Shown here piece by piece: positions 3,036-19,963 of a DNA stretch of 20,108 bases. The position numbers and the translations under genes were made by a program. Numbering within the stretch: position 1 is the stretch's first letter; each line of letters starts with the position of its first letter. Origin of the DNA: a virus; the IMG/VR virus record IMGVR_UViG_3300025889_001230, positions 1-20,108 of that record, one strand, 5' to 3'. A model generated the notes under the pieces. That model saw only the letters and a list, made by a program, of their open reading frames with translations, had not been told where the DNA came from and did not search any database.

Positions 3036-5288
3036 ATGCCGGTTCAAGAACAAAACTCTACGCTATCCAAATATCTTGAGATTGTTTCTTGTTACGAAAA
3101 CGATTTTAAGAAATGGGAAGGTAGAGTAACAAAGATTATTAAAAAATACCGGGACGATAACCGATCTAATTCAAGTTACGAAACCGCAAAGTTTAATATT
3201 CTTTGGTCAAATGTCCAAACACTTATTCCGGCGGTGTACTCACGTCTGCCAAAAGCAGAAGTAAGCCGCCGGTTCGGCGATAGCGATCCAATCGGCAGGG
3301 TCGCATCGCTACTTCTTGAGCGTAGCCTCGACTATGAGATCGAGCATTACTCTGATTATCGCTCATCTCTTTATAACTCTGTCGAAGACAGGTTTCTTGG
3401 CGGCAGAGGCGTGTCTTGGGTTCGTTATGACCCGCACTTAAGGATTCAGCCTGAATCTTATGAGCCAATACAGATAACCGAGGATGTAAGCGTCTATGAG
3501 GGTTATGAGGACGGCAGAGAAGAGTACAAAGAAGGCCAAAGTGGTGACATTCAAGACTTCACTACTCCACCTATGGAGATGCAAGAAGAAATTGATTACG
3601 AATGTTCGCCAGTAGACTATGTTCACTGGAAAGACTTTGGTCATACGCCAGCTAGGACTTGGGAAGAAGTAACTGAAGTATGGCGCTGGGTCTACATGAC
3701 CAAAGAGGCCGTTGTAGAAAGATTTGGGAAAAAGATTGCACGAAAGATTCCTTTTGACTCTTCTCCCGATCCTCTTAACAAATACGGCCAACAAAACAAA
3801 ACGCAAGACAGGGCTAAAATCTGCGAACTTTGGTGCAAGCAAAGCAATAAAGTCTATTGGTTTGCCAAAGGTATGCAAGACATAATTGAAGAATGTGAAG
3901 ACCCTCTTGAACTAGAAGGGTTTTTCCCATGCTCAAAGCCTTTGTATGCTACCACGACAACAGACAATCTTATTCCTGTACCTGATTTCACTCTTTACCA
4001 AGATCAGGCAAACGAACTTGACATTTTGTCGGACAGGATTGACGGGCTTGTTAAGGCGCTTCGCGTCAGGGGTGTTTACGATGCAAGCCAGCCAGCTTTG
4101 CAGCGGCTTCTTACTGAGGGTGAAAACAATTCGCTAATCCCCGTCGATAAATGGATGGCGTTCTCAGAAAAAGGCGGCTTAAGGGGAGCTATAGACCTTC
4201 TTCCAATTGATACTTTGGCTGCTGCTCTTTTGCAATGTTACCAGGCAAGATCCGACATCAAGAACCAAGTTTACGAGATTACCGGAATTTCTGACATTAT
4301 TAGAGGCAGCACATTTGCATCTGAAACTGCAACGGCGCAGCAAATCAAAGGCCAGTATGCCGGTCTGAGACTTCGTTCTATGCAAGAAAAAGTCTCAATG
4401 TTTGCAACAGAACTTTTAAGAATCAAGGCTCAGATTATTTGCTCTAAATATCAAGACCAAACAATCTTGATGTATTCCGCTGCTGACCAGTTAAGCCAAG
4501 AAGACCAGATGCTGATACCAGATGCGCTGGCGCTTCTAAGAGACAACCCGCTGCGCGGTTTCAGAATTGATATTGCTGCTGACAGTATGGTTCAGATCGA
4601 CGAGCAGCAAAACAAAGCAGACAGAATAGAATTTATGAACGCATTTGCAAACTTTATGCGTGAAGCTGTCCCTGCTGGTCAGGCTGTTCCTGAAATTACG
4701 CCAACCCTTATGCAATTAATCAAGTACGCAGTCTCAGGCTTTAAACAAGCAAAAACTGTTGAAGGAACAATTGATACTGCTCTTGAGCAACTAAAACAAA
4801 AAGCTATTCAGTCTCAGCAAAACCCGCAGCCTGATCCGGCTCAAATTCAAATGCAAATGGAACAACAAAAGTTCCAGGCTGAAACGCAAGCCGAAACTCA
4901 ACTGAAGCAGCTTGAGTTCCAATTAGAAAGTGAAATGAAAAAATTAGAAACGCAACTTGACATTCAGAAAATGCAACAAGAAGCAAAACTTGATGCAGAA
5001 AAAGAAATCATGGTCGCGCGTATACAAGCAAACCCAGGCATTGATCTGCCGATTGTTGAACAAGCAAAATATGCGGCTGATGCAATAGGTCTTGAAATAT
5101 CAAAAATACAAGAAGCTGTCGCTCAGATGGCTGAAATTCAAAAACAATCAGAAATCAAACACGATCAAATTATGAATCAATTGGCAGGGTTTATGCAGGT
5201 CATAACAGCGCCAAAAAGAATTATTCGCGGGCCGGATGGAAGGGCTATCGGAGCGGAGCCGGTTATAAATAAAGGAGCAATTCAATGA
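3036..5288 (+). CDS. portal protein
   Basis: The 750-residue protein lies between terminase and scaffold/capsid genes and has the length and shape of P22-type podovirus portals (P22 gp1 is about 725 residues). The portal is the dodecameric ring at the unique capsid vertex through which DNA enters and leaves. The N-terminal segment NILWSNVQTLIPAVYSRLPK (about 54-73) is characteristic of this portal group. It is followed by YEGYEDGREEY and acidic loops, and a long central clip/stem-type region. The last part, about 573-720, is extremely rich in Gln, Glu and Lys and strongly predicted as coiled coil, corresponding in position to the C-terminal helical barrel of P22-like portals. AAGGGG at 3025-3030 precedes the start by 5 bases. 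The stop overlaps the next gene (ATGA). Confidence 0.9.
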   Translation: MPVQEQNSTLSKYLEIVSCYENDFKKWEGRVTKIIKKYRDDNRSNSSYETAKFNILWSNVQTLIPAVYSRLPKAEVSRRFGDSDPIGRVASLLLERSLDYEIEHYSDYRSSLYNSVEDRFLGGRGVSWVRYDPHLRIQPESYEPIQITEDVSVYEGYEDGREEYKEGQSGDIQDFTTPPMEMQEEIDYECSPVDYVHWKDFGHTPARTWEEVTEVWRWVYMTKEAVVERFGKKIARKIPFDSSPDPLNKYGQQNKTQDRAKICELWCKQSNKVYWFAKGMQDIIEECEDPLELEGFFPCSKPLYATTTTDNLIPVPDFTLYQDQANELDILSDRIDGLVKALRVRGVYDASQPALQRLLTEGENNSLIPVDKWMAFSEKGGLRGAIDLLPIDTLAAALLQCYQARSDIKNQVYEITGISDIIRGSTFASETATAQQIKGQYAGLRLRSMQEKVSMFATELLRIKAQIICSKYQDQTILMYSAADQLSQEDQMLIPDALALLRDNPLRGFRIDIAADSMVQIDEQQNKADRIEFMNAFANFMREAVPAGQAVPEITPTLMQLIKYAVSGFKQAKTVEGTIDTALEQLKQKAIQSQQNPQPDPAQIQMQMEQQKFQAETQAETQLKQLEFQLESEMKKLETQLDIQKMQQEAKLDAEKEIMVARIQANPGIDLPIVEQAKYAADAIGLEISKIQEAVAQMAEIQKQSEIKHDQIMNQLAGFMQVITAPKRIIRGPDGRAIGAEPVINKGAIQ

Positions 5289-5692
5289 GTGTTCAATTTT
5301 CTACTGATGTAAGAGATGATCGTTTAGATCAGATACAGACCACAGTAGGCGCTTCCGCTGTATTGAAAATATGGAGTGGTTCTGTTCCCGCTAATTGTGC
5401 TGCTGCTGACAGCGGAACTACTCTTGCGACTTGCTCTTTGCCGTCAACTTGGATGTCTGCTGCCTCTGGTGGTTCTGCCTCCAAATCTGGAACTTGGGAA
5501 GATACTTCTGCCGATGCTACCGGAACGGCTGGACACTTTAGAATTTACGACAGCGGTGTAACGACTTGCCATATGCAAGGCACGGTAACGGCAACGGGCG
5601 GCGGAGGAGACATGACTGTTGACAGTACTTCTTTTACTGCCGGTCAGTCTTTTACAGTCGTAACTTTTACATTGACCGATGGCAACGCTTAA
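5285..5692 (+). CDS. conserved phage protein, beta-rich, probably virion-associated
   Basis: The start ATG 5285 overlaps the portal stop and has AAGGAG at 5272-5277 with 7 bases of spacing. The 135-residue protein starts with STDVRDDRLDQIQTTVGASA and continues VLKIWSGSVPANCAAADSGT. It then has a Gly/Thr/Ser-rich region with TSADATGTAGHFRIYDSG and QGTVTATGGGGDMTVD, ending FTLTDGNA. This set of motifs (AxLKIxxGxxPAxCAAADxGT, GTAGHFRIYD, QGTVTxTGGGGDxxxD) is common in hypothetical proteins of many podo- and siphoviruses, usually in the head module. It is probably a small beta-sandwich structural protein. There are no membrane segments. Exact function is unknown. Confidence 0.8.
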   Translation: MSVQFSTDVRDDRLDQIQTTVGASAVLKIWSGSVPANCAAADSGTTLATCSLPSTWMSAASGGSASKSGTWEDTSADATGTAGHFRIYDSGVTTCHMQGTVTATGGGGDMTVDSTSFTAGQSFTVVTFTLTDGNA

Positions 5693-5703
5693 TTGAGATA
5701 GTG

Positions 5704-6030
5704 ATGTCTTACATTGTCTGCTTCGATAAAACAGACGCGAAAATACATATGGTCGTATCTGGCGCTCACAATCTGAGCGATCCGGCTTTTCACCCTAGTG
5801 ATTGCTTTCAAGTGGTTTTCACGGGCGAAGAGTATAATAACGCTGGCGGTCAGTGGTACGCGCTTTGTAAACTAGCTGTTCTGCGAGTCTCTCCAGAAAA
5901 CGCCCTGGTCCTGAATAAGAGGGCTGATGACTATGACGCAGAACAAGAGCGCCTCAGAATAGAGCGCGAAACCATAGTAATAACTTCTCCAGACATCGAA
6001 GAGCCTTATACAAACGACGCGGTGATCTAA
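5704..6030 (+). CDS. hypothetical phage protein
   Basis: The frame can begin at GTG 5701 or ATG 5704. I prefer ATG 5704, giving 108 residues starting MSYIVCFDKT, because ATG is the usual start in this operon. The upstream ribosome binding site is weak (GAGAT at about 5695-5699), so the choice is not firm. The protein has a mixed alpha/beta look with YNNAGGQWYALCKLAVLRV in the middle and a charged helical stretch DDYDAEQERLRIERE towards the C-terminus. I do not recognise a family. It lies between two beta-rich structural genes and ends one base before the glycine-rich gene. A small virion or assembly role is plausible from context only. Confidence 0.7.
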   Translation: MSYIVCFDKTDAKIHMVVSGAHNLSDPAFHPSDCFQVVFTGEEYNNAGGQWYALCKLAVLRVSPENALVLNKRADDYDAEQERLRIERETIVITSPDIEEPYTNDAVI

Positions 6031-6031
6031 T

Positions 6032-8527
6032 ATGGTCACGCGGATAGTCCTCACCTCCGGCACGACGTGGAATGTTCCAAGCGACTGGAACAGTTCCAAC
6101 AACACAATCTACGCTATCGGCGCGGGCGGTAACGGCGAAGACGCTGTAGACAATTCTTACGGCGGTGTTGGGGGTGGCGGCGGGGAGTTCCGCGCTGTTC
6201 AGAACGTATCTCTTACCCCGTCTTCAACGGTTGATATTAACATCGCTGCTGGAGGTGCTGGGTCGGGCGCAGATGGCACTTGGCTAAAAAACAACGCCAG
6301 CACTATCGTTTTAGAAGCTAAGAACGGCGGAAACGGCGCGAGCAGAACTGAAGGCTCTGGCGGCACGGGCGGAACCGGCAGCTACATTGCGTTTGACGGC
6401 GGGGCTGGCGGCGCGAACACTAACACAAATAGTAGTGCGGGCGCGGGTGCGGGTGGTGGGTCGTCGGGCGGTCCAAACGGCGCGGGCGAGGTAGGTGGTA
6501 GCGCACAAAGCTCGACAAATCGCGGCGGTGGCGGCGGAGGTGGCGCGGGCGGGTCGTCCAGCACAGCGGGGCAAGACTCCACAACGAGTTCAGGCGGAGA
6601 TGGCGGCGACGGACCAGACGGGACGGGCGGCGGATCAGGCGGGACCCCCGGCGGTGCTGGAACCGCTGGAACGGGGGGTGGCGGCGGGGGCGCGAATAAC
6701 GCGACTGGCGGCACAGTAGCCACTGGCGGTGCGGGCGCGGTTTATTACGAATGGGATAGCGCGTATGGCCCTTCTGGGGGCGGTGGCGGTGGCGGTTCGG
6801 CGTCGGGTAGCGCCGGTACGGGCAATCGCGACGGTGGCGCGGGAGGCACTTACGGCGGCGGCGGTGGCGGTGGCTCTTTTTCATCATCTGTTGGGACGGG
6901 TGGCGCGGGTGGTCAGGGCCTCCTTGTAATTGAATATACTCCGCAAGCTGCAGATCGCGAGGCCGCTCTTAATGTAACTCTCGCCGACGCCACACTTTCT
7001 TCTGCGGCGGAACTCGGGGACGCCCCCACTATCGTTATTTTGTCCTCCGGCACGACTTGGGCTGTTCCGTCAGATTGGAATTCGTCAAACAATTCAATTG
7101 AGGCGATCGGCGCGGGCGGCACTGGCGCGTCAGCCGTTACCAATTCATTGGTCGGCGGTGGCGGCGGCGGCGGAGAATATCGTAAAGCAACGAATGTCAC
7201 ACTAACTGCGTCCAGCACGGTCGATATTAACATACCGGCGGGTGGTGCGGGATCGGCAGCCGATGGCGCTTGGCTAAAGAACGGCGCTGGCGGGGGTGGG
7301 ACAATCATACTTGAAGCCAAGAATGGCGCGAACGCGTCGGGCTCTTCCGGCGGCGCGGGCGGCACTGGCGGAACGGGTGCTGGTGGGAACTACGATGGCG
7401 GCGCGGGCGGCGCAGGGCAGTCCATAGACGCGGCTCGTGGCGGCGCTGGGGGCGGCGGTTCTGCTGGGCCGACAGGCGCGGGGAAAGCTGGCGCGGCTTC
7501 CGTCTCCAATCGCGGCGCTGGTGGCGGTGGCGGTAGCAACGGCGGCAGTTCAACTGCTGGCAATACCAGTCCGTCCGTAAACGTAGGCGGGGACGGCGGC
7601 CAAGGAACTGGCGGTACCGGCGCGGGCATTGGTGGGGGTAACGAAACTGTTGGTGGGAACGCTACGGCAGGCACAGGCGCAGGCGGGGGCGGTGGCGGGT
7701 CAGCCGGGGCGTCCGGGCCTACTCATGGCGGCACTGGAGCAATCGACACAGCATTTGACGCTTCTCACGGGGCGGGCGGTGGTGGCGGCGGCGGCGGCGG
7801 TGGTGGAGCGTCAGCAACGTCCGGAGATGGCGGCGCAGGAGCCACCTATGGCGGCGGCGGCGGCGGCGGCGGACAGTCTGGTTCCGGCACATCGGGATCG
7901 GGCGGCACAGGCGGGCAAGGCATCATTGTAGTTACTTACTTTCCTTCTAGCGCTAATATTAATGCCAGTTTGAGTGTAACGCTTGGAGAGGCAACACTAT
8001 CTTCAGCGGCCAATCTTCCTATTTCAGCAGATTTGTCGGCAACACTTGGGGATGCAACACTATCTTCAACAGCTAATCTTGATATTTCAGCAGATTTGTC
8101 GGCAACGCTTGGAGAGGCAACGCTATCTTCAACGGCTACAATTTCTTTTGCAAACATTAACGCAAATTTAAATATAACGCTTGAAAACGCCTCTTTGTCT
8201 TCAACCGCTACTATAACGCAACCCGTTGTTATTATTGAAGATACTCACGATGGCGATAAAAAAAGGCGTCTTTTCAAGAAAGAAATAAAAGACAAAGAAC
8301 AAAGAAAAAAGAAAATATTGCAAGCATACGAAAAGTTAATAGAAAATAAAAATGAAGAAGTGGAAAGTATAGTCAAAGAATTTGTCATTAAAGATAAAGT
8401 AAAAAACTATGTTTTTGAAAAGAAAAACATAGATTTTGATAAACTTATTAATGATTTAGACAAAGCAGAAAGACTTTGGAACTTATATATAATGATGGAC
8501 GACGAGGAGGTCTTGATTTTATTATGA
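6032..8527 (+). CDS. glycine-rich double-domain protein with repeats, adhesin/head-fibre candidate
   Basis: The 831-residue product has four parts. Residues 1-307 and about 331-636 are two related glycine-rich domains. Each starts with a strand-rich cap (SGTTWNVPSDWNSSNN and SGTTWAVPSDWNSSNN, then IxAIGAGG) followed by long Gly/Ala/Ser/Thr runs, and each ends GGTGGQG or GGAGGQG plus a beta strand. Such domains occur in phage tail-fibre adhesins, where polyglycine-II helices can pack into a sandwich that displays receptor loops. Residues 646-730 hold four copies of an ATLSST-type repeat, with a fifth (ALNVTLADATLSSAAEL) at 312-328 between the domains. Residues 731-831 are Lys/Glu-rich and helical (DTHDGDKKRRLFKKEI, then DKLINDLDKAERLWNLYIM), ending in DDEEVLILL. 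A similar repeat-plus-acidic-tail protein is common next to scaffolds in related phages, so this may be that protein with glycine-rich domains added. The start has a modest GGTGA site. The gene lies in the head module. Confidence 0.85.
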   Translation: MVTRIVLTSGTTWNVPSDWNSSNNTIYAIGAGGNGEDAVDNSYGGVGGGGGEFRAVQNVSLTPSSTVDINIAAGGAGSGADGTWLKNNASTIVLEAKNGGNGASRTEGSGGTGGTGSYIAFDGGAGGANTNTNSSAGAGAGGGSSGGPNGAGEVGGSAQSSTNRGGGGGGGAGGSSSTAGQDSTTSSGGDGGDGPDGTGGGSGGTPGGAGTAGTGGGGGGANNATGGTVATGGAGAVYYEWDSAYGPSGGGGGGGSASGSAGTGNRDGGAGGTYGGGGGGGSFSSSVGTGGAGGQGLLVIEYTPQAADREAALNVTLADATLSSAAELGDAPTIVILSSGTTWAVPSDWNSSNNSIEAIGAGGTGASAVTNSLVGGGGGGGEYRKATNVTLTASSTVDINIPAGGAGSAADGAWLKNGAGGGGTIILEAKNGANASGSSGGAGGTGGTGAGGNYDGGAGGAGQSIDAARGGAGGGGSAGPTGAGKAGAASVSNRGAGGGGGSNGGSSTAGNTSPSVNVGGDGGQGTGGTGAGIGGGNETVGGNATAGTGAGGGGGGSAGASGPTHGGTGAIDTAFDASHGAGGGGGGGGGGGASATSGDGGAGATYGGGGGGGGQSGSGTSGSGGTGGQGIIVVTYFPSSANINASLSVTLGEATLSSAANLPISADLSATLGDATLSSTANLDISADLSATLGEATLSSTATISFANINANLNITLENASLSSTATITQPVVIIEDTHDGDKKRRLFKKEIKDKEQRKKKILQAYEKLIENKNEEVESIVKEFVIKDKVKNYVFEKKNIDFDKLINDLDKAERLWNLYIMMDDEEVLILL
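7967..8221 (+). repeat. tandem 63-base (21-residue) coding repeats
   Basis: Within the glycine-rich gene, units at 7967-8029, 8030-8092 and 8093-8155 are each 63 bases and encode versions of DLSATLGDATLSSTANLDIS. A shorter diverged unit follows at about 8165-8221 after a three-residue insertion. The second and third units are nearly identical at DNA level over most of their length (gatttgtcggcaac, then cttgg, then ctatcttcaac), which indicates recent tandem duplication or slippage. A separate diverged copy lies at 6965-7015 between the two glycine-rich domains. The repeats are in frame, have no spacers of their own and are not a CRISPR array. They probably form short stacked beta elements. 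Confidence 0.9.
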
Positions 8528-8865
8528 GTACAACAAGAATAATCTATGATTCCAAAGGAAAACTTGCTGAATTTGAGGATGATTATTTAATTTGGTCTAG
8601 AAATAATCTAGATTCACCAAGTAAATCATTTAATGTTATTAGGGATATAGACCCGTATAAAAGTATGATTACTGGAGAGATGATCGACAGTAGGTCTAAG
8701 CACAGAGAACACCTCAGAAAGCATAATTGCATTGAGGTCGGAAACGAGAAAATGGAGACAAAGATTCCTGCGTATAAAGATAACAGACGGGAATTACTCC
8801 ATAAACAGCTTGGCGACATGAGTGATCGACAGGCAAACAAAATATTAAAACAACTGAGGGGTTAA
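8524..8865 (+). CDS. conserved small phage protein upstream of scaffold
   Basis: ATG 8524 overlaps the previous stop (ATGA) and gives 113 residues. AGGAGG lies at 8505-8510, a longer spacing than usual. An upstream in-frame ATG at 8476 lies inside the previous gene and is disfavoured. The protein has the pattern FNVIRDIDPYKSMITGEMID, then SRSKHREHLRKHNCIEVGNE, which is common in a family of phage hypothetical proteins found between portal and scaffold genes. The C-terminus is basic and helical (RRELLHKQLGDMSDRQANKI). The HREHLRKHN segment is His/Arg-rich, but there is no proper metal-binding spacing to support a nuclease call. It is probably a head-assembly accessory; function unknown. Confidence 0.75.
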   Translation: MSTTRIIYDSKGKLAEFEDDYLIWSRNNLDSPSKSFNVIRDIDPYKSMITGEMIDSRSKHREHLRKHNCIEVGNEKMETKIPAYKDNRRELLHKQLGDMSDRQANKILKQLRG

Positions 8866-8866
8866 T

Positions 8867-9865
8867 ATGTCTGAAGATTTAGACGAAGATTTGGAAGTAG
8901 AAAACGAAGAAAGTCCAATAGATCGCAAGGATTTATTGGCAAAACAGTTTGAGTATGCTGAAAACTCATCTCAAGAAAGAGATGAAAATGGTAGGTTTAA
9001 ACAGGCAAATCAAGAAATTAATAAGACTGAAGAAGAGTTTATTGAAGAAGAGCCTGTATGGAAAAAGCCGCCAAATAGCTGGAAAAAAGAATATCACGAA
9101 GCATGGATTGGGGCAGACCCTAAGATTCAAGAGTATGCTTGGCAGCGTGAAGAAGAGATGCGCCGTGGGGTAGAGCCTTTGAAGGAAAAGGCTCAGTTTG
9201 CAGATCATATTAATCAAGTCATTGAGCCTTACCTACCGACCATTCGCGGCCTTGGTATAGACCCCGCTACGGCCATTCAGGGGCTTATGAACGCCGATTA
9301 TACGCTTAGAAACAGCGACCCACAGGGCAAGCGGAATTACCTTATGCAGCTTGCCAGAGCGTATGGTATTGACCTTTCCGGCCAAACTAATGATAATAAT
9401 TTCCAAGAACAGTCTCAAAATAGAGACCCTAATTTTTATGCACTTAAAAATGAGTTGCAATCAATTAAGGGCGAAGTTGCGAGTTGGAAACAAGAGCAGG
9501 AACGGGTTAAAGACCAGGAAATCCTGTCGGAAATAAATAGTTTTTCTTCAAAGACTGAGTTTTTTGAAGAGGCAAGACCAGCAATGATTCAACTCCTACA
9601 GAGCGGGATGGCTGGCACGTTAGAAGAAGCCTATGAAAAGGCTACACGTTTAGACAACGATCTTTTTAATAAAATCCAATCGCGCCAACAAGCCGAATCG
9701 GAAAGTAAGAAAAGGGAGTTGGCTGACAAGGCTGCGAAAACAGCCAAAGCAGCGGCATTGAGTGTTAAGACCTCCGCACCCGGAGCTAGGCCCAAGGCCA
9801 AAGCGCAAGATAGGCGCGATCTTTTGAGGGAACAGTTCGATGAACTGGGAGGAGGACGCTTCTGA
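8867..9865 (+). CDS. putative head scaffold protein
   Basis: The 332-residue protein sits directly before the major capsid gene, where scaffold genes lie. Scaffolds fill the procapsid, set shell size and leave before or during packaging. It begins with a very acidic tail (SEDLDEDLEVENEESP). Residues 65-130 contain KKPPNSWKKEYHEAW and EYAWQREEEMRRGVEPLKEK, a pattern of podovirus scaffold-like proteins. Amphipathic helices follow (IEPYLPTIRGLGIDPATAIQ, then YLMQLARAYGIDL) and a charged helical, Ala/Lys-rich C-terminal part (about 275-325, AADKAAKTAKAAAL), fitting coat-binding helix-turn-helix ends of scaffolds. A second in-frame stop (TAA 9875-9877) follows the TGA at 9863-9865. GAGGGG at 8856-8861 precedes the start. 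Confidence 0.8.
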   Translation: MSEDLDEDLEVENEESPIDRKDLLAKQFEYAENSSQERDENGRFKQANQEINKTEEEFIEEEPVWKKPPNSWKKEYHEAWIGADPKIQEYAWQREEEMRRGVEPLKEKAQFADHINQVIEPYLPTIRGLGIDPATAIQGLMNADYTLRNSDPQGKRNYLMQLARAYGIDLSGQTNDNNFQEQSQNRDPNFYALKNELQSIKGEVASWKQEQERVKDQEILSEINSFSSKTEFFEEARPAMIQLLQSGMAGTLEEAYEKATRLDNDLFNKIQSRQQAESESKKRELADKAAKTAKAAALSVKTSAPGARPKAKAQDRRDLLREQFDELGGGRF

Positions 9866-9891: not shown

Positions 9892-10893
9892 ATGGCTTTT
9901 GCAAATAGTGACATCAGCGACATCATTGCGACTAATATCCAGAGCCGCACGGGTGAACTCGCTGACAACGTGACGAACAACAATGCGTTGCTTCGTCGCC
10001 TTAAAGAGCGCGGAAACATTAAGACGTTTTCGGGCGGTAACGTAATCCTCGAAGAAATCATGTATAATGACTCTTCGACGAACAACACGAACAGCTATTC
10101 GGGCTACGAAGTGCTGAACGTGTCTCAGAACTCGCCAATTAGTGCGGCGCAGTTCTCCATCACGCAGTATGCGTCTGCGGTGTCAATCTCTGGTCTGGAA
10201 CAGCTTCAGAACAGTGGTAAAGAGGCAATCATTGAACTTCTCGATGGCCGTATGGCCGTCGCTGAAGCGCAGCTTGCCAACCGCATTGGTGGCGACATCT
10301 ACCTAGACGGCACGGGCAACGCTGGCAAGAACATCACGGGTCTTGCGGCGGCTGTTCCGGACTCGCCTTCTTCGGGAACTTATGGCGGCATCAATCGCGC
10401 AACTTGGAGTTTCTGGCGTCCCGTTTCTTATTCGGGTTCTTCGGATGGTGGCGCGGCTGTTAGCTCGTCCAATATCACGGGCTACATGGACGCGGTTGCG
10501 GTTCAGTTGATCCGTGGCACGGACAAGCCCGACCTTATCGTTGCTGATAACAACTACTATAAGCTGTACCTTCAGAGCCTTCAGGCGATCCAGCGCGTTA
10601 CGGACTCCGGTTCGTCGATGGCTGGCGCTGGCTTTGCGTCCCTCAAATATTATGGCGCGGGTATGTCTTCAGACGTTGTTCTTGACGGCGGTATCGGTGC
10701 TGATGCTACCGCGAACCATATGTGGTTCCTCAACACCAAGTATCTGCGCTTCCGTCCTCACGCTAACCGGAATTTCGTTCCGATTGGTGGAGAGCGTCAG
10801 GCAGTCAATCAGGATGCGATCGTCAAGCTGATTGGCTGGGCCGGCAACATGACCTGTTCCGGTTCGCAATTCCAGGGCGTCCTTATTGCTTAA
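9892..10893 (+). CDS. major capsid protein
   Basis: The 333-residue product, directly after the scaffold gene, is the probable coat protein that builds the icosahedral shell (HK97-type fold by family expectation). Its sequence is typical of this podovirus capsid family: NNALLRRLKERGNIKTFSGG near residues 29-48, AVSISGLEQLQNSGKEAIIE near 98-117, LDGTGNAGKNITGLAAAVPD near 139-158, DLIVADNNYYKLYLQSLQAI near 215-234, and LNTKYLRFRPHANRNFVPIG near 279-298. A strong AGGAG site (9881-9885) lies 6 bases before ATG 9892. The gene has visibly more G/C-ending codons than its neighbours, in line with high expression. The stop is followed 14 bases later by the next start. Confidence 0.93.
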   Translation: MAFANSDISDIIATNIQSRTGELADNVTNNNALLRRLKERGNIKTFSGGNVILEEIMYNDSSTNNTNSYSGYEVLNVSQNSPISAAQFSITQYASAVSISGLEQLQNSGKEAIIELLDGRMAVAEAQLANRIGGDIYLDGTGNAGKNITGLAAAVPDSPSSGTYGGINRATWSFWRPVSYSGSSDGGAAVSSSNITGYMDAVAVQLIRGTDKPDLIVADNNYYKLYLQSLQAIQRVTDSGSSMAGAGFASLKYYGAGMSSDVVLDGGIGADATANHMWFLNTKYLRFRPHANRNFVPIGGERQAVNQDAIVKLIGWAGNMTCSGSQFQGVLIA

Positions 10894-11801: not shown

Positions 11802-12663
11802 ATTAGGTATCCCGGCTCCTACATCTGTAGCGGGTAATACCAACCAAGACATTGTGCAAATCCTGGCACTTATGAACGCCAGCGGATACGAACTTTTGCG
11901 TAAATCCGATTGGCAGCATCTTACGAAAACATATTCTTTCTTTACAGATTACAAGACGACAACCGGAACCTACAGTCCTTCATCAAGAACCATTACTGGT
12001 ATTCCCTCAACCAGCGGTCTTGATACGAAGTATATGATTGTAGGTTCCGGCTTCCCTAACGCCACTTTCATTGAAAGTGTTGATTCCGGTACGCAAGTTA
12101 CGGCAACGCAATATCCTAACGAAACCGTAAGTAACGGAACTATCTATTTCCAAAAAGTAAAATACGATCTTCCAAGCGATTACGATTCTATCGTGCCAAG
12201 AACACAATGGGATAAATCTAAACATTGGGAGATGCTTGGACCGGAAAGTCCTCAACAATGGGAGTGGATATTAAGCGGTTACATAAGCACTGGCCCAAGA
12301 GTTAGATGGAGATTATTATCAGGCTATTTTCAGATTTGGCCGGGATTTAGCAATAATGAATTGCTTGGTTTTGAATATAGGTCAAAGGCTTGGGCAGAGT
12401 CTTCAAGCGGTACGCCAAAGAATAGTTTTAATGTTGATACGGATACCTGCATCTACCCTGACCGTCTTATTGTTCTTATGACAAAGCTAAAGTATTTTGA
12501 AGCAAAAGGCTTCGATACTACAGCAATGTACAGAAACTTCTTGACGGAACTTGAGACTGATATTGCTCAAGACGCCTCTTCGCCAAACCTTTCTTTTGCT
12601 CCCAAGCTAAATTCCATTTTGATTGGATACGACAACATACCGGATAGCGGATACGGCGAATAA
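11758..12663 (+). CDS. head-to-tail adaptor protein (P22 gp4-like)
   Basis: The 301-residue protein starts at ATG 11758 behind a GAGGAAGAGGAAG-type purine region. An alternative start is the in-frame ATG at 11770. The N-terminus STMLELVTQVANELGIPAPT, then NQDIVQILALMNASGYELLR and the SDWQHLTKTYSF that follows, is typical of the podovirus adaptor or packaged-DNA stabilisation family, which docks under the portal after packaging. The remainder is beta-rich with many aromatic residues (PRTQWDKSKHWEMLGPESPQ, then PRVRWRLLSGYFQIWPGF), and a helical end follows (KLKYFEAKGFDTTAMYRNFL, then ELETDIAQD). It is longer than P22 gp4 (about 166 residues), so the comparison is one of role rather than close identity. 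Its stop overlaps the nozzle start (TAATG). Confidence 0.75.
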   Translation: MSSTMLELVTQVANELGIPAPTSVAGNTNQDIVQILALMNASGYELLRKSDWQHLTKTYSFFTDYKTTTGTYSPSSRTITGIPSTSGLDTKYMIVGSGFPNATFIESVDSGTQVTATQYPNETVSNGTIYFQKVKYDLPSDYDSIVPRTQWDKSKHWEMLGPESPQQWEWILSGYISTGPRVRWRLLSGYFQIWPGFSNNELLGFEYRSKAWAESSSGTPKNSFNVDTDTCIYPDRLIVLMTKLKYFEAKGFDTTAMYRNFLTELETDIAQDASSPNLSFAPKLNSILIGYDNIPDSGYGE

Positions 12664-14225
12664 TGGCGTATCTTGTAAACAGTCTTGTTCAGAAAGCTGC
12701 GGCTAACGTAGACTCTCTTCCGTCGCCGGTTGGAGGCTGGAACGCTAGAGACTCTTTGGCTGGCATGGAGCCATATGACGCTGTTAGCCTTGTCAATCTT
12801 TTTCCAAGTACGTCAAATGTAGTATTGCGCGGCGGGTACTCTGAACACGCTACGGGCATGAGCGGCCCTGTAGAGACTTTAATGGTCTATGCGGGCGGCG
12901 CTACAGAAGAAATGTTTGCCATAGATGCAACAGGTCTTTCGATCTATGATGTTACTTCTTCTGGTGCGGTTGGTTCCGCAGAAGTATCAGGACTAAGTAG
13001 CGCGAGATGGGAACATATCAATGTTTCAACCCCAGGAGGTAATTTTCTTTATGCCGTTAATGGGATTGATTCGCCGCTTCTTTATGATGGCACAACATGG
13101 ACATCTATAACGGGTGCTTCTAGCCCAGCAATTACAGGTGTAACGACAAACGATCTGTCAAACATAACTCTATTTAAAAACCGCGTATGGTTCATAGAAA
13201 AAGACACGCTTGTAGCCTGGTATCTTCCGACTTATTCAGTAGGTGGCGCGGCAAACTATATAGATTTAAGAGCCGTCGCAAAGTACGGCGGCTATATTGT
13301 CGATGTAGACACTTGGACTATAGACGCGGGGTATGGTGCTGACGACAATCTTGTATTCGTAACTTCTCAGGGCGAAGTAATAGTTTACGCAGGTACGGAC
13401 CCAGCTAGTGCGTCTACATGGAACCTTATAGGTGTATGGAAGCTAGGAACTCCAATTGGCAAAAGGTGTCTTTATAAATACGGCGGCGACCTTCTGATAT
13501 TAACTAATGATGGTTTGTTCCCTCTTGCTTCAGCACTTCAGAGTTCAAGGCTCGATCCGCGAGTAGCCCTCTCAAACAAAATTGAAGGCGCTATTAGTGA
13601 GTATGCAAATCTATACGGAAACAACTTTGGTTGGGATATAGTTTATTCCCCCAAACATAGTGGCTTATGGGTAAATGTTCCTGTTTCCAGCGGCAAGCAA
13701 GAACAGTTTGTAATGAACAGCATCACTAAATCATGGTGCAAGTTCACTGGTTGGGACGCTAATTGTTGGGAGATATACAACAATAACCCTTACTTCGGTG
13801 CTAGTGGTGCCGTCTACAAAGCATGGGATGATGGCTATTCTGACAATGGCTCAAATATAGAGACATCGGCACTACAGGCATTTAATTACTTTGGCTCCCG
13901 CGGCGTAAAGAAGTATTTCACCCGCGCAAGAGCGTCTATCTTTACTGACGGGAACCCAGGCGTTTCTGTCGGCGTAAACGTAGATTTCAATCTTTCAGAC
14001 AACACAACGCCAATAACATTCATACCCGCAACTGGTGCGGTATGGGATACCGCGACATGGGATGATGCAAACTGGTCAGATTCGTCCGTTATAACAAATA
14101 ACTGGCTAGGCGTTAGCGGCATTGGGTATTGCGGATCAGTTCAGTTTAAGAGTGTTAGCAGGGGGACAAGCATGGAGTGGGCGGCTACTGACGTAGTTTT
14201 CCAAGCTGGATGGGCTGGAATATAG
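12663..14225 (+). CDS. tail nozzle/packaged-DNA stabilisation protein (beta-propeller-like)
   Basis: The 520-residue product follows the adaptor gene and matches the podovirus stabilisation or nozzle family that closes the tail tube below the adaptor (P22 gp10 and T7 gp12 have this role). The N-terminal hallmark LPSPVGGWNARDSLAGMEPY, then VNLFPSTSNVVLRGGYSEHA (about 19-63) is strongly family-like. The rest is a long series of beta strands with repeated Gly/Asp turns and Trp residues, as in a beta-propeller (for example NITLFKNRVWFIEKDTL, DNLVFVTSQGEVIVYAGTDP, KYGGDLLILTNDGLFPL, TKSWCKFTGWDANCWEIYNN). The closing Trp/Asp-rich stretch VWDTATWDDANWSDS is also typical. There is no enzymatic motif. 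It overlaps the acetyltransferase gene by 16 bases. Confidence 0.85.
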   Translation: MAYLVNSLVQKAAANVDSLPSPVGGWNARDSLAGMEPYDAVSLVNLFPSTSNVVLRGGYSEHATGMSGPVETLMVYAGGATEEMFAIDATGLSIYDVTSSGAVGSAEVSGLSSARWEHINVSTPGGNFLYAVNGIDSPLLYDGTTWTSITGASSPAITGVTTNDLSNITLFKNRVWFIEKDTLVAWYLPTYSVGGAANYIDLRAVAKYGGYIVDVDTWTIDAGYGADDNLVFVTSQGEVIVYAGTDPASASTWNLIGVWKLGTPIGKRCLYKYGGDLLILTNDGLFPLASALQSSRLDPRVALSNKIEGAISEYANLYGNNFGWDIVYSPKHSGLWVNVPVSSGKQEQFVMNSITKSWCKFTGWDANCWEIYNNNPYFGASGAVYKAWDDGYSDNGSNIETSALQAFNYFGSRGVKKYFTRARASIFTDGNPGVSVGVNVDFNLSDNTTPITFIPATGAVWDTATWDDANWSDSSVITNNWLGVSGIGYCGSVQFKSVSRGTSMEWAATDVVFQAGWAGI

Positions 14226-14614
14226 TAAGCGGCCCAGAAGTGGGCCATTGGACTGCTGAGAAATTAAAGGCTGGTTATTTTGCAGAAAGGTCTAACGCTA
14301 TTGGTTTTGTAAGGGACGGTAAGTTAGTTGCCGGAGTTATTTATGAAAATTGGAACGGCAAGTCTCTTATCAATCATATTGTTATAGAAGGTCGTGTAAA
14401 CCGGACTTTTTTGAGAAGTATATGTGACTACGCTTTTAACGTCTGCAAAGTAAACAAGTCTATAGCGCCAGTATCGAGTGACAACGAGAAGAGCATAAAG
14501 TTTGTAGAGAAGATGGGTTACAAAAAAGAAGCAACTATAAAAGATGCCCACCCAAACGGTGACATACTAATTTATAGCTTGGTTAGAGAAGATTGTAGGT
14601 TTTTAGAGGTATAA
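14210..14614 (+). CDS. GNAT-type N-acetyltransferase-like protein
   Basis: The 134-residue protein has a GNAT-like order of elements: an N-terminal region with the beta hairpin AIGFVRDGKLVAGVIYENWN (30-49), strand SLINHIVIEG (52-61), helix TFLRSICDYAFNVCK (66-80), strand KSIAPVSSDN (83-92) and the motif B-like DNEKSIKFVEKMGYKKEATI (91-110). The usual acetyl-CoA pyrophosphate loop (R/Q-x-x-G-x-G/A) is replaced by GRVNRTFLRS, so cofactor binding may be altered or lost. Such proteins occur in the tail modules of a number of podoviruses; their substrate is unknown. The start at ATG 14210 lies within the nozzle gene end and has no clear ribosome binding site, implying coupling. The next gene starts one base after its stop. 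Confidence 0.75.
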   Translation: MGWNIVSGPEVGHWTAEKLKAGYFAERSNAIGFVRDGKLVAGVIYENWNGKSLINHIVIEGRVNRTFLRSICDYAFNVCKVNKSIAPVSSDNEKSIKFVEKMGYKKEATIKDAHPNGDILIYSLVREDCRFLEV

Positions 14615-18919: not shown

Positions 18920-19963
18920 ATGAGCTACAACGGGTCGGGTACATTCTTAATCAATACAGCGGGTCAGCCTGTTGTAGCAGGTACTACCATAACCGCGACG
19001 GCGTTTAATACGCTAACGACTGATCTTGCAAATGGACTTACGAACGCTATTTGCAAAGATGGTCAGTCAACTCCTACTGCTGACATATCCTTCGGCAATA
19101 ACAAGATAACGAACCTAAAGGCTGGAACGCTTCTTTCGGACGCCGCCCGCTTGTCTCAAGTTCAAGACGGATCGACAATCTACCTTACATCTGTAAGTGG
19201 GACCGACACGATCACCGGGACGGCGGTTCCAAGCATTTCCTCTTACACTGCCGGGAATATGTTTAACTTCGTTGCTGCTGGCACTAATACCGGCGCTGCG
19301 ACGATCAATATTAACGGCATAGGCGCGGTGTCGATAACAAAGAACGGCGCTACTGCACTCGATGCCGGTGATATTTCATCCGGCAAAGTCTACACGATTG
19401 TCTACGATGGCGCTCAATTCCAAGTCGATATTGCTGGATCGATATCAACACCGATTTCAATCGCCAATGGTGGGACGAACGCCGCTACTGAATCAGACGC
19501 CAGGACTAACCTTGGCGTCCCAACGGGAACAAGCGGAGCCGTCCTTGGCTTCTTGGATGGGGCCAACACTTGGTCTGGTATTCAGACTCTATCTGTCGGC
19601 GCAGACATTACTCCAGCCGCAACTCCATCAACAACGTCAGTAGGTTATCTTGGTACTCCGCTGAATACTCAAAATACAGCCTATACATTTATTATGTCTG
19701 ACGCTGGGAAGACAATATATCACACAAGCGCCACGGCTCACAGTTACGCCATCCCCGCAAATGGTTCAGTCGCATATCCAATTGGAACTATTATCTGCAT
19801 AGAGAACGAGAGCGGCGCTGGCAACATCACTCTTTCCATCAATACTGACACGCTAAGGTGGAACTCAAGCACTGGGACAAGAACTATCGCTGCTAATGGC
19901 AGCGCAGCTATCAAGAAAGTTGACTCTACAACTTGGCGATTAGTCGGGGCGGGCATTACATAA
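18920..19963 (+). CDS. tail fibre/spike protein
   Basis: The 347-residue protein has the modular layout of phage tail fibres. GGAG at 18909-18912 precedes ATG 18920. The N-terminus (SYNGSGTFLINTAGQPVVAG) and the segment NNKITNLKAGTLLSDAARLS (about 60-79) are the usual virion-attachment type. A small beta domain follows with AAGTNTGAATININGIGAVS and LDAGDISSGKVYTIVYDGAQ (about 118-166). Then a linker IANGGTNAATESDARTNLGV (about 181-200) resembles the NGGTGAxTxxxARxNLG repeat of fibres. The last ~100 residues form a Ser/Thr/Gly-rich beta domain common at fibre ends (YTFIMSDAGKTIYHTSA, then IPANGSVAYPIGTIICIENE, then LRWNSSTGTRTIAANGSAAI). This domain is expected to bind the host surface or trimerise. 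The stop overlaps the next start. Confidence 0.85.
   Translation: MSYNGSGTFLINTAGQPVVAGTTITATAFNTLTTDLANGLTNAICKDGQSTPTADISFGNNKITNLKAGTLLSDAARLSQVQDGSTIYLTSVSGTDTITGTAVPSISSYTAGNMFNFVAAGTNTGAATININGIGAVSITKNGATALDAGDISSGKVYTIVYDGAQFQVDIAGSISTPISIANGGTNAATESDARTNLGVPTGTSGAVLGFLDGANTWSGIQTLSVGADITPAATPSTTSVGYLGTPLNTQNTAYTFIMSDAGKTIYHTSATAHSYAIPANGSVAYPIGTIICIENESGAGNITLSINTDTLRWNSSTGTRTIAANGSAAIKKVDSTTWRLVGAGIT

Follow-up and report, generated by a model that had tools for sequence, protein, structure and literature searches.

The glycine-rich gene of a 20.1-kb phage fragment (20,108 nucleotides, the whole stretch of DNA that was analysed, here called the window) is flanked by portal and scaffold/capsid genes and probably encodes a modular, exchangeable virion appendage, attached by its C-terminal domain (the C-domain) and bearing two Pam3-type adhesin domains on a beta-repeat stalk. 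The two glycine-rich adhesin domains would form the N-terminal tips of the appendage, a short stalk of beta repeats would carry them, and the conserved helical C-domain would end the stalk and attach the appendage to the virion. The domain structure, the glycine-rich family, the constancy and place of the C-domain, and the swapping of all that lies N-terminal to it are apparent at the level of sequence; the role of the C-domain as attachment part, or anchor, we infer from its constancy.

Gene order and coding of the window protein

The genes of the window run from the terminase large subunit through the portal protein, two small proteins of 135 and 109 aa, the glycine-rich protein and g113 to the scaffold and the capsid protein (Table 1). 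Behind the capsid gene follow a tail adaptor-like gene (11758), a tail-hub-like gene (12663), genes for more structural proteins, and then the tail fibre gene. The 135-aa gene was found again in a few relatives only and, as judged by eye, beside a stalk-repeat protein in an unrelated phage (loci L005, L050, L055, and L182). The 109-aa gene possibly encodes a fibre partner or chaperone.

Table 1. Positions of features in the window
Feature	Position	Strand	Remarks
Portal gene	3036..5288	+	phrog_12082 portal, E 6.4e-175; Mx8 p45 homologue; left border of variable slot
Small cassette gene, 135 aa	5285..5692	+	phrog_3758 "virion structural protein"
109-aa gene	5701..6030	+	Accompanies glycine-rich gene; in an unrelated phage, 88% identical and next to a 91%-identical copy of that gene
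Glycine-rich gene (ORF)	6032-8527	+	831 aa
Glycine-rich domain D1, residues 1-307	6032..6952	+	Gly_rich_2/Pam3-type adhesin tip
Linker between D1 and D2	6953..7024	+	One copy of the stalk's 21-24-aa repeat (AALNVTLADATLSSAAEL)
Glycine-rich domain D2, residues 332-637	7025..7942	+	Related to D1
Stalk	7946..8224	+	Four 21-24-aa beta repeats (SADLSATLGDATLSSTAN type)
C-domain, about 100 aa	8225..8524	+	Acidic and hydrophobic C-terminus DDEEVLILL; carrier/anchor candidate
g113	8524..8865	+	Right border of slot, conserved; ATGA overlap with C-domain gene
Putative scaffold	8867..9865	+	Positioned as Mx8 p47; similarity across relatives
Major capsid (major head) protein	9892..10893	+	PHROG E 4e-103
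Ordinary tail-fibre gene	18920..19963	+	N-terminus conserved, C-terminus variable; far downstream of slot

Further along the structural module, an acetyltransferase-like (GNAT) gene lies at 14210-14614, and an acyl- or GNAT acetyltransferase is annotated at the equivalent place in Mx8 (p53), BUCT555, and ppBjS10J-1. The tail-hub-like protein (12663-14225) matches a PHROG labelled "amidase," a name that Mx8 p52 carries as well; the label may be a mis-annotation.

The original prediction had described two related tandem glycine-rich domains between the portal and scaffold/capsid genes, and both its coordinates and its account of their content were correct: D1 and D2 share 61% identity from end to end. 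What it had described as an AT-rich end turned out to be a distinct, charged and conserved domain behind four repeats, and the same repeat joins D1 to D2. The stalk consists of direct DNA repeats with spacings of 63, 63, and 72 nt. Base differences between D1 and D2 fell at third codon positions in 198 of 379 cases, and changes between D1 and its copy in an unrelated phage were distributed 23/21/40 over codon positions 1/2/3. Since changes are biased toward the third position and D1 is kept in an unrelated phage, the frame is coding; chance or artefact as the source of the ORF was ruled out by this pattern and by the existence of relatives. The GC content is 64 to 66% in D1/D2 (GC3 0.58), 42% in the stalk repeats (GC3 0.27), 26% in the C-domain (GC3 0.27), and 43% in the portal gene (GC3 0.39). 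The high GC content of D1/D2 owes much to glycine codons; a GC3 break near position 7943 persists all the same.

Family and fold of the glycine-rich domains

Family scans with the whole 831-aa protein gave no match, probably because its glycine-rich composition hides one, and a tblastn search with the whole protein against isolated phages gave none either. Residues 1-103, taken separately, passed the cutoff of Pfam family PF21722 (Gly_rich_2; 25.8 bits versus 24.3), with full-length D1 and D2 scoring just 11.5 and 9.6 bits, so that only the start of the domain passes. The same family was passed strongly by proteins in the slot of two relatives, L065 and L066 (E 3.6e-44 and 5.3e-22). When a profile of nine glycine-rich domains (A3) was searched against the PDB with hmmsearch, it matched the tail fibre of cyanophage Pam3 (7ypx/7yfw) at E 1.5e-6, positions 3-142. 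The original prediction had proposed structure prediction and a structure search as a check, and the monomer fold of D1 likewise matched the Pam3 fibre (VIA-align to 7ypx, Z 7.7 with 171 residues aligned), followed by the Bxb1 tail tip (6.1) and a next row at 3.6; the Z value of 7.7 is below 8, yet clearly above the unrelated rows. The AlphaFold model of D1 was dependable only in the beta strands near both domain ends, the glycine loops being poor (mean pLDDT 50). Together, family, profile, and fold make the adhesin-type identity of the glycine-rich domain well supported, and the domain is a newly found member of an already known family. A search for further relatives of the domain returned only the few loci already found and L167.

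Pam3 gp24 (PDB 7YPX/7YFW; TNF-like and glycine-rich tip) recognises its host by this tip domain (PMC9608196), and the glycine-rich loops of the window protein would bind a host surface or particle. In both proteins, long glycine-rich loops come after a beta platform. The arrangements differ, however: gp24 docks to the baseplate through an N-terminal helical domain and has its tip at the C-terminal end, whereas the window protein starts with its glycine-rich domain, in two copies, and ends in a conserved C-terminal domain. A likeness to the gp38 adhesin of Salmonella phage S16 (PDB 6F45), which has a polyglycine type II sandwich and N-terminal helices that bind gp37, had first been proposed. 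As in gp38, many glycine-rich motifs are split by variable segments, and gp24, the closer solved relative, was likened to gp38 by its authors (PMC9608196); 6F45 itself was not among the matches listed by sequence or fold, in a comparison where the glycine loops were modelled at low confidence, and no gp37-like partner, such as S16 gp38 has, was identified for the window protein.

A constant C-domain behind exchangeable N-terminal parts

Next, we looked at how the locus varied across 80 loci with capsids 85 to 100% identical to that of the window. Matches to the window protein lay mainly in the C-terminal ~100 residues. The C-domain was present in 135 loci, some of them overlapping, and exactly one full copy was found in 19 of 22 near-complete records. 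At every locus with both borders covered it sits between the portal gene and g113, homologues of which also occur in same-lineage prophages without a cassette. The invariant residues are a D-x-HDG motif, two glutamates, and, close to the end, a DE pair, and the acidic-hydrophobic C-terminal tail was found in 109 of 111 carriers versus 4 of 2630 background ORFs. At moderate confidence, the AlphaFold model of stalk and C-domain showed a single long helix and a helical hairpin in the C-domain, which had no fold match in the PDB. The C-domain was also without significant sequence match in Pfam, PHROGs, NCBIfam, and the PDB, and tblastn did not find it in the isolated-phage collection. Yet it is encoded by at least 380 phage stretches from environmental samples. 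A capsid-alignment scan of bacterial genome and bin contigs found it in five, namely, four metagenome bins with capsids 87 to 89% identical, whose names are unsafe evidence of host, and one weak case (L191).

The distance from portal to C-domain ranges from 48 to 5076 nt across loci. The shortest forms of the slot contain a WD-rich leader only; other slots contain 20-26-aa repeats that are mutually unrelated in sequence (autocorrelation peaks in nearly all). Longer slots contain additional genes of their own, with matches to tail fibre (E 3.5e-40), minor tail (1.1e-27), and YadA head repeats (2.2e-12), and some hold Gly_rich_2 domains, fused to the C-domain in L066 and separate from it in L065. 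The C-domains of L065 and L066 are 99% identical and follow unrelated N-terminal parts of 20 and 364 aa, and those of L012 and L022 are 98% identical and follow unrelated repeats. An alignment of relatives had been suggested as a way to see whether the domains come and go, and they do: the C-domain stays constant, and the N-terminal content is swapped. Among the capsid-selected loci, a cassette was present in 36 of 53 with the C-domain (17 were without) versus 0 of 6 lacking it (Fisher test, P value = 0.002, which overstates independence, the loci being mutually related). The WD-pentad motif of the carrier leaders is also present in the tail-hub-like protein (12663-14225). A second variable position lies between the capsid and tail-adaptor genes, where three relatives have an extra gene of 465 to 659 aa that starts alike in all three (L175:12897-14876, L177:7804-9771, and L167:3870-5267) and the window has none.

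Instead of an anchor, the constant C-terminus could be a domain that acts as a fibre chaperone or in trimerisation, whether its client is fused to it or separate. In the Pam3 chaperone gp25, a variable N-terminal part precedes a conserved helical one, and intramolecular chaperones located at the C-terminus have been described (PMC9608196); the C-domain is likewise predicted to be helical, and near-identical copies occur both fused and free (L065/L066). We nevertheless consider this explanation unlikely, because 34 loci hold the C-domain alone, without a cassette, directly behind the portal gene, where it has a WD-rich leader of its own; because the variable part of carriers consists of repeats, with no evident client-binding domain; and because family searches matched no known chaperone family. 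The stand-alone copies also count against the anchor reading, since the C-domain may have a role of its own.

The cassette is mobile as well. Positions 5710-6936 (109-aa gene and D1) have 91.6% DNA identity to an unrelated 60-kb phage (L085), in which they lie beside tail and lysis genes. The protein of that phage also has two glycine-rich domains, with a linker and terminal repeats from a different family than those of the window; within each of the two proteins, linker and stalk repeats match one another. The original prediction that the gene was built of pieces of different origins was thus borne out by the GC3 break, by this mobile module, and by the C-domain with its swapped N-terminal parts. 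Repeats of the window's stalk family (TLGAATLSS type) also make up most of a 1138-aa protein near tail-hub-like genes in another unrelated phage (L181:5098-8514).

In more distant phages the slot is again occupied. Contigs of bacterial genomes or bins with portals about 32 to 43% identical have large inserts there, several of them fibre-like by sequence, and the carriers of L191, L198, and L207 have repeats and then a charged tail. The distant Mx8-like record G001 and the distant Rhizobiales-bin contig L208 have glycine-rich genes in the slot and no detectable C-domain, a further point against attachment by the C-domain. In the portal-capsid interval of L208, two genes (1334-2973 and 3263-5395), one of them glycine-rich, have signal-peptide-like starts, and a pectin-lyase/tailspike-like gene is also present. 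These two starts, in one prophage-like contig, are what would favour a non-structural product, a secreted or cell-surface moron within the late operon; the window protein has no signal-peptide-like leader, and its neighbours and the relatives of its module are fibre proteins, which makes such a product highly improbable.

Comparison with known systems and possible sites of attachment

Podovirus tail fibres are conserved at the N-terminus and diverge toward the C-terminus (PMC10386132). In the classical type, the conserved N-terminal domain binds the virion. We observed this pattern of conservation in the tail fibre of the same phages, the gene at 18920 (9 of 9 matches begin at residue 1). The carrier is the opposite, with a constant C-terminus and a variable N-terminal part, and thus departs from the classical fibre.

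It is quite possible that the slot is an extra tail or neck fibre locus, whose products attach, as podovirus fibres and spikes otherwise do, to the tail hub or the junction of portal and adaptor, with none on the head. Cassette genes show similarity to tail fibres and to a tailspike, and in other phages glycine-rich genes of this type follow gpJ/tail fibre (P19250A), separate tail adaptor from hub (G001, in addition to its slot copy between portal and scaffold), or adjoin tail and lysis genes, as in the 60-kb phage. However, these genomes encode their ordinary tail fibre, of opposite polarity, at another place, and the genes linked to the C-domain gene are those of head assembly. A tail or neck site would be compatible with the exchangeable appendage that we favour. 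Adjacency to the portal gene weakly suggests a location on the head; genome neighbourhood is not virion location, and the site may be the capsid, the portal vertex or neck, or the tail.

In T4 Hoc, the N-terminal part varies and the conserved C-terminal domain binds the capsid (PMC10385173). The carrier has the same polarity and in this respect a Hoc-like architecture, a likeness that does not amount to homology. Family scans detected no Ig family in the window protein, which does not prove that an Ig-like domain is absent, and the C-domain showed no resemblance to Hoc. Among isolated phages, the window's portal and capsid are nearest to those of Myxococcus phage Mx8 and its relatives (Mx9, BUCT555, and ppBjS10J-1), at <55% identity (portal, 32 to 36%; major capsid, 47 to 52%), and gene order is shared. 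The Mx8 group differs in that no more than three short genes, and at least one, separate portal from scaffold; there is neither a long cassette nor a match to the C-domain.

Literature searches found no papers on this locus, whose portal-adjacent carrier and exchangeable cassette make it a new form of a known type of system. More tentatively, Mx8-lineage podoviruses might keep a dedicated portal-adjacent carrier, widespread and so far undescribed, whose C-domain would fix interchangeable adhesins, stalks, and fibres to the capsid or the portal vertex, independently of the tail fibres, in a Hoc-like manner with unrelated parts. The adhesin cassette is common to unrelated phages, with the stalk repeat exchanged. 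If the C-domain is an anchor, it would mark where environmentally common phages swap modules for surface binding independently of their tail fibres, and it would provide a sequence handle for finding such modules.
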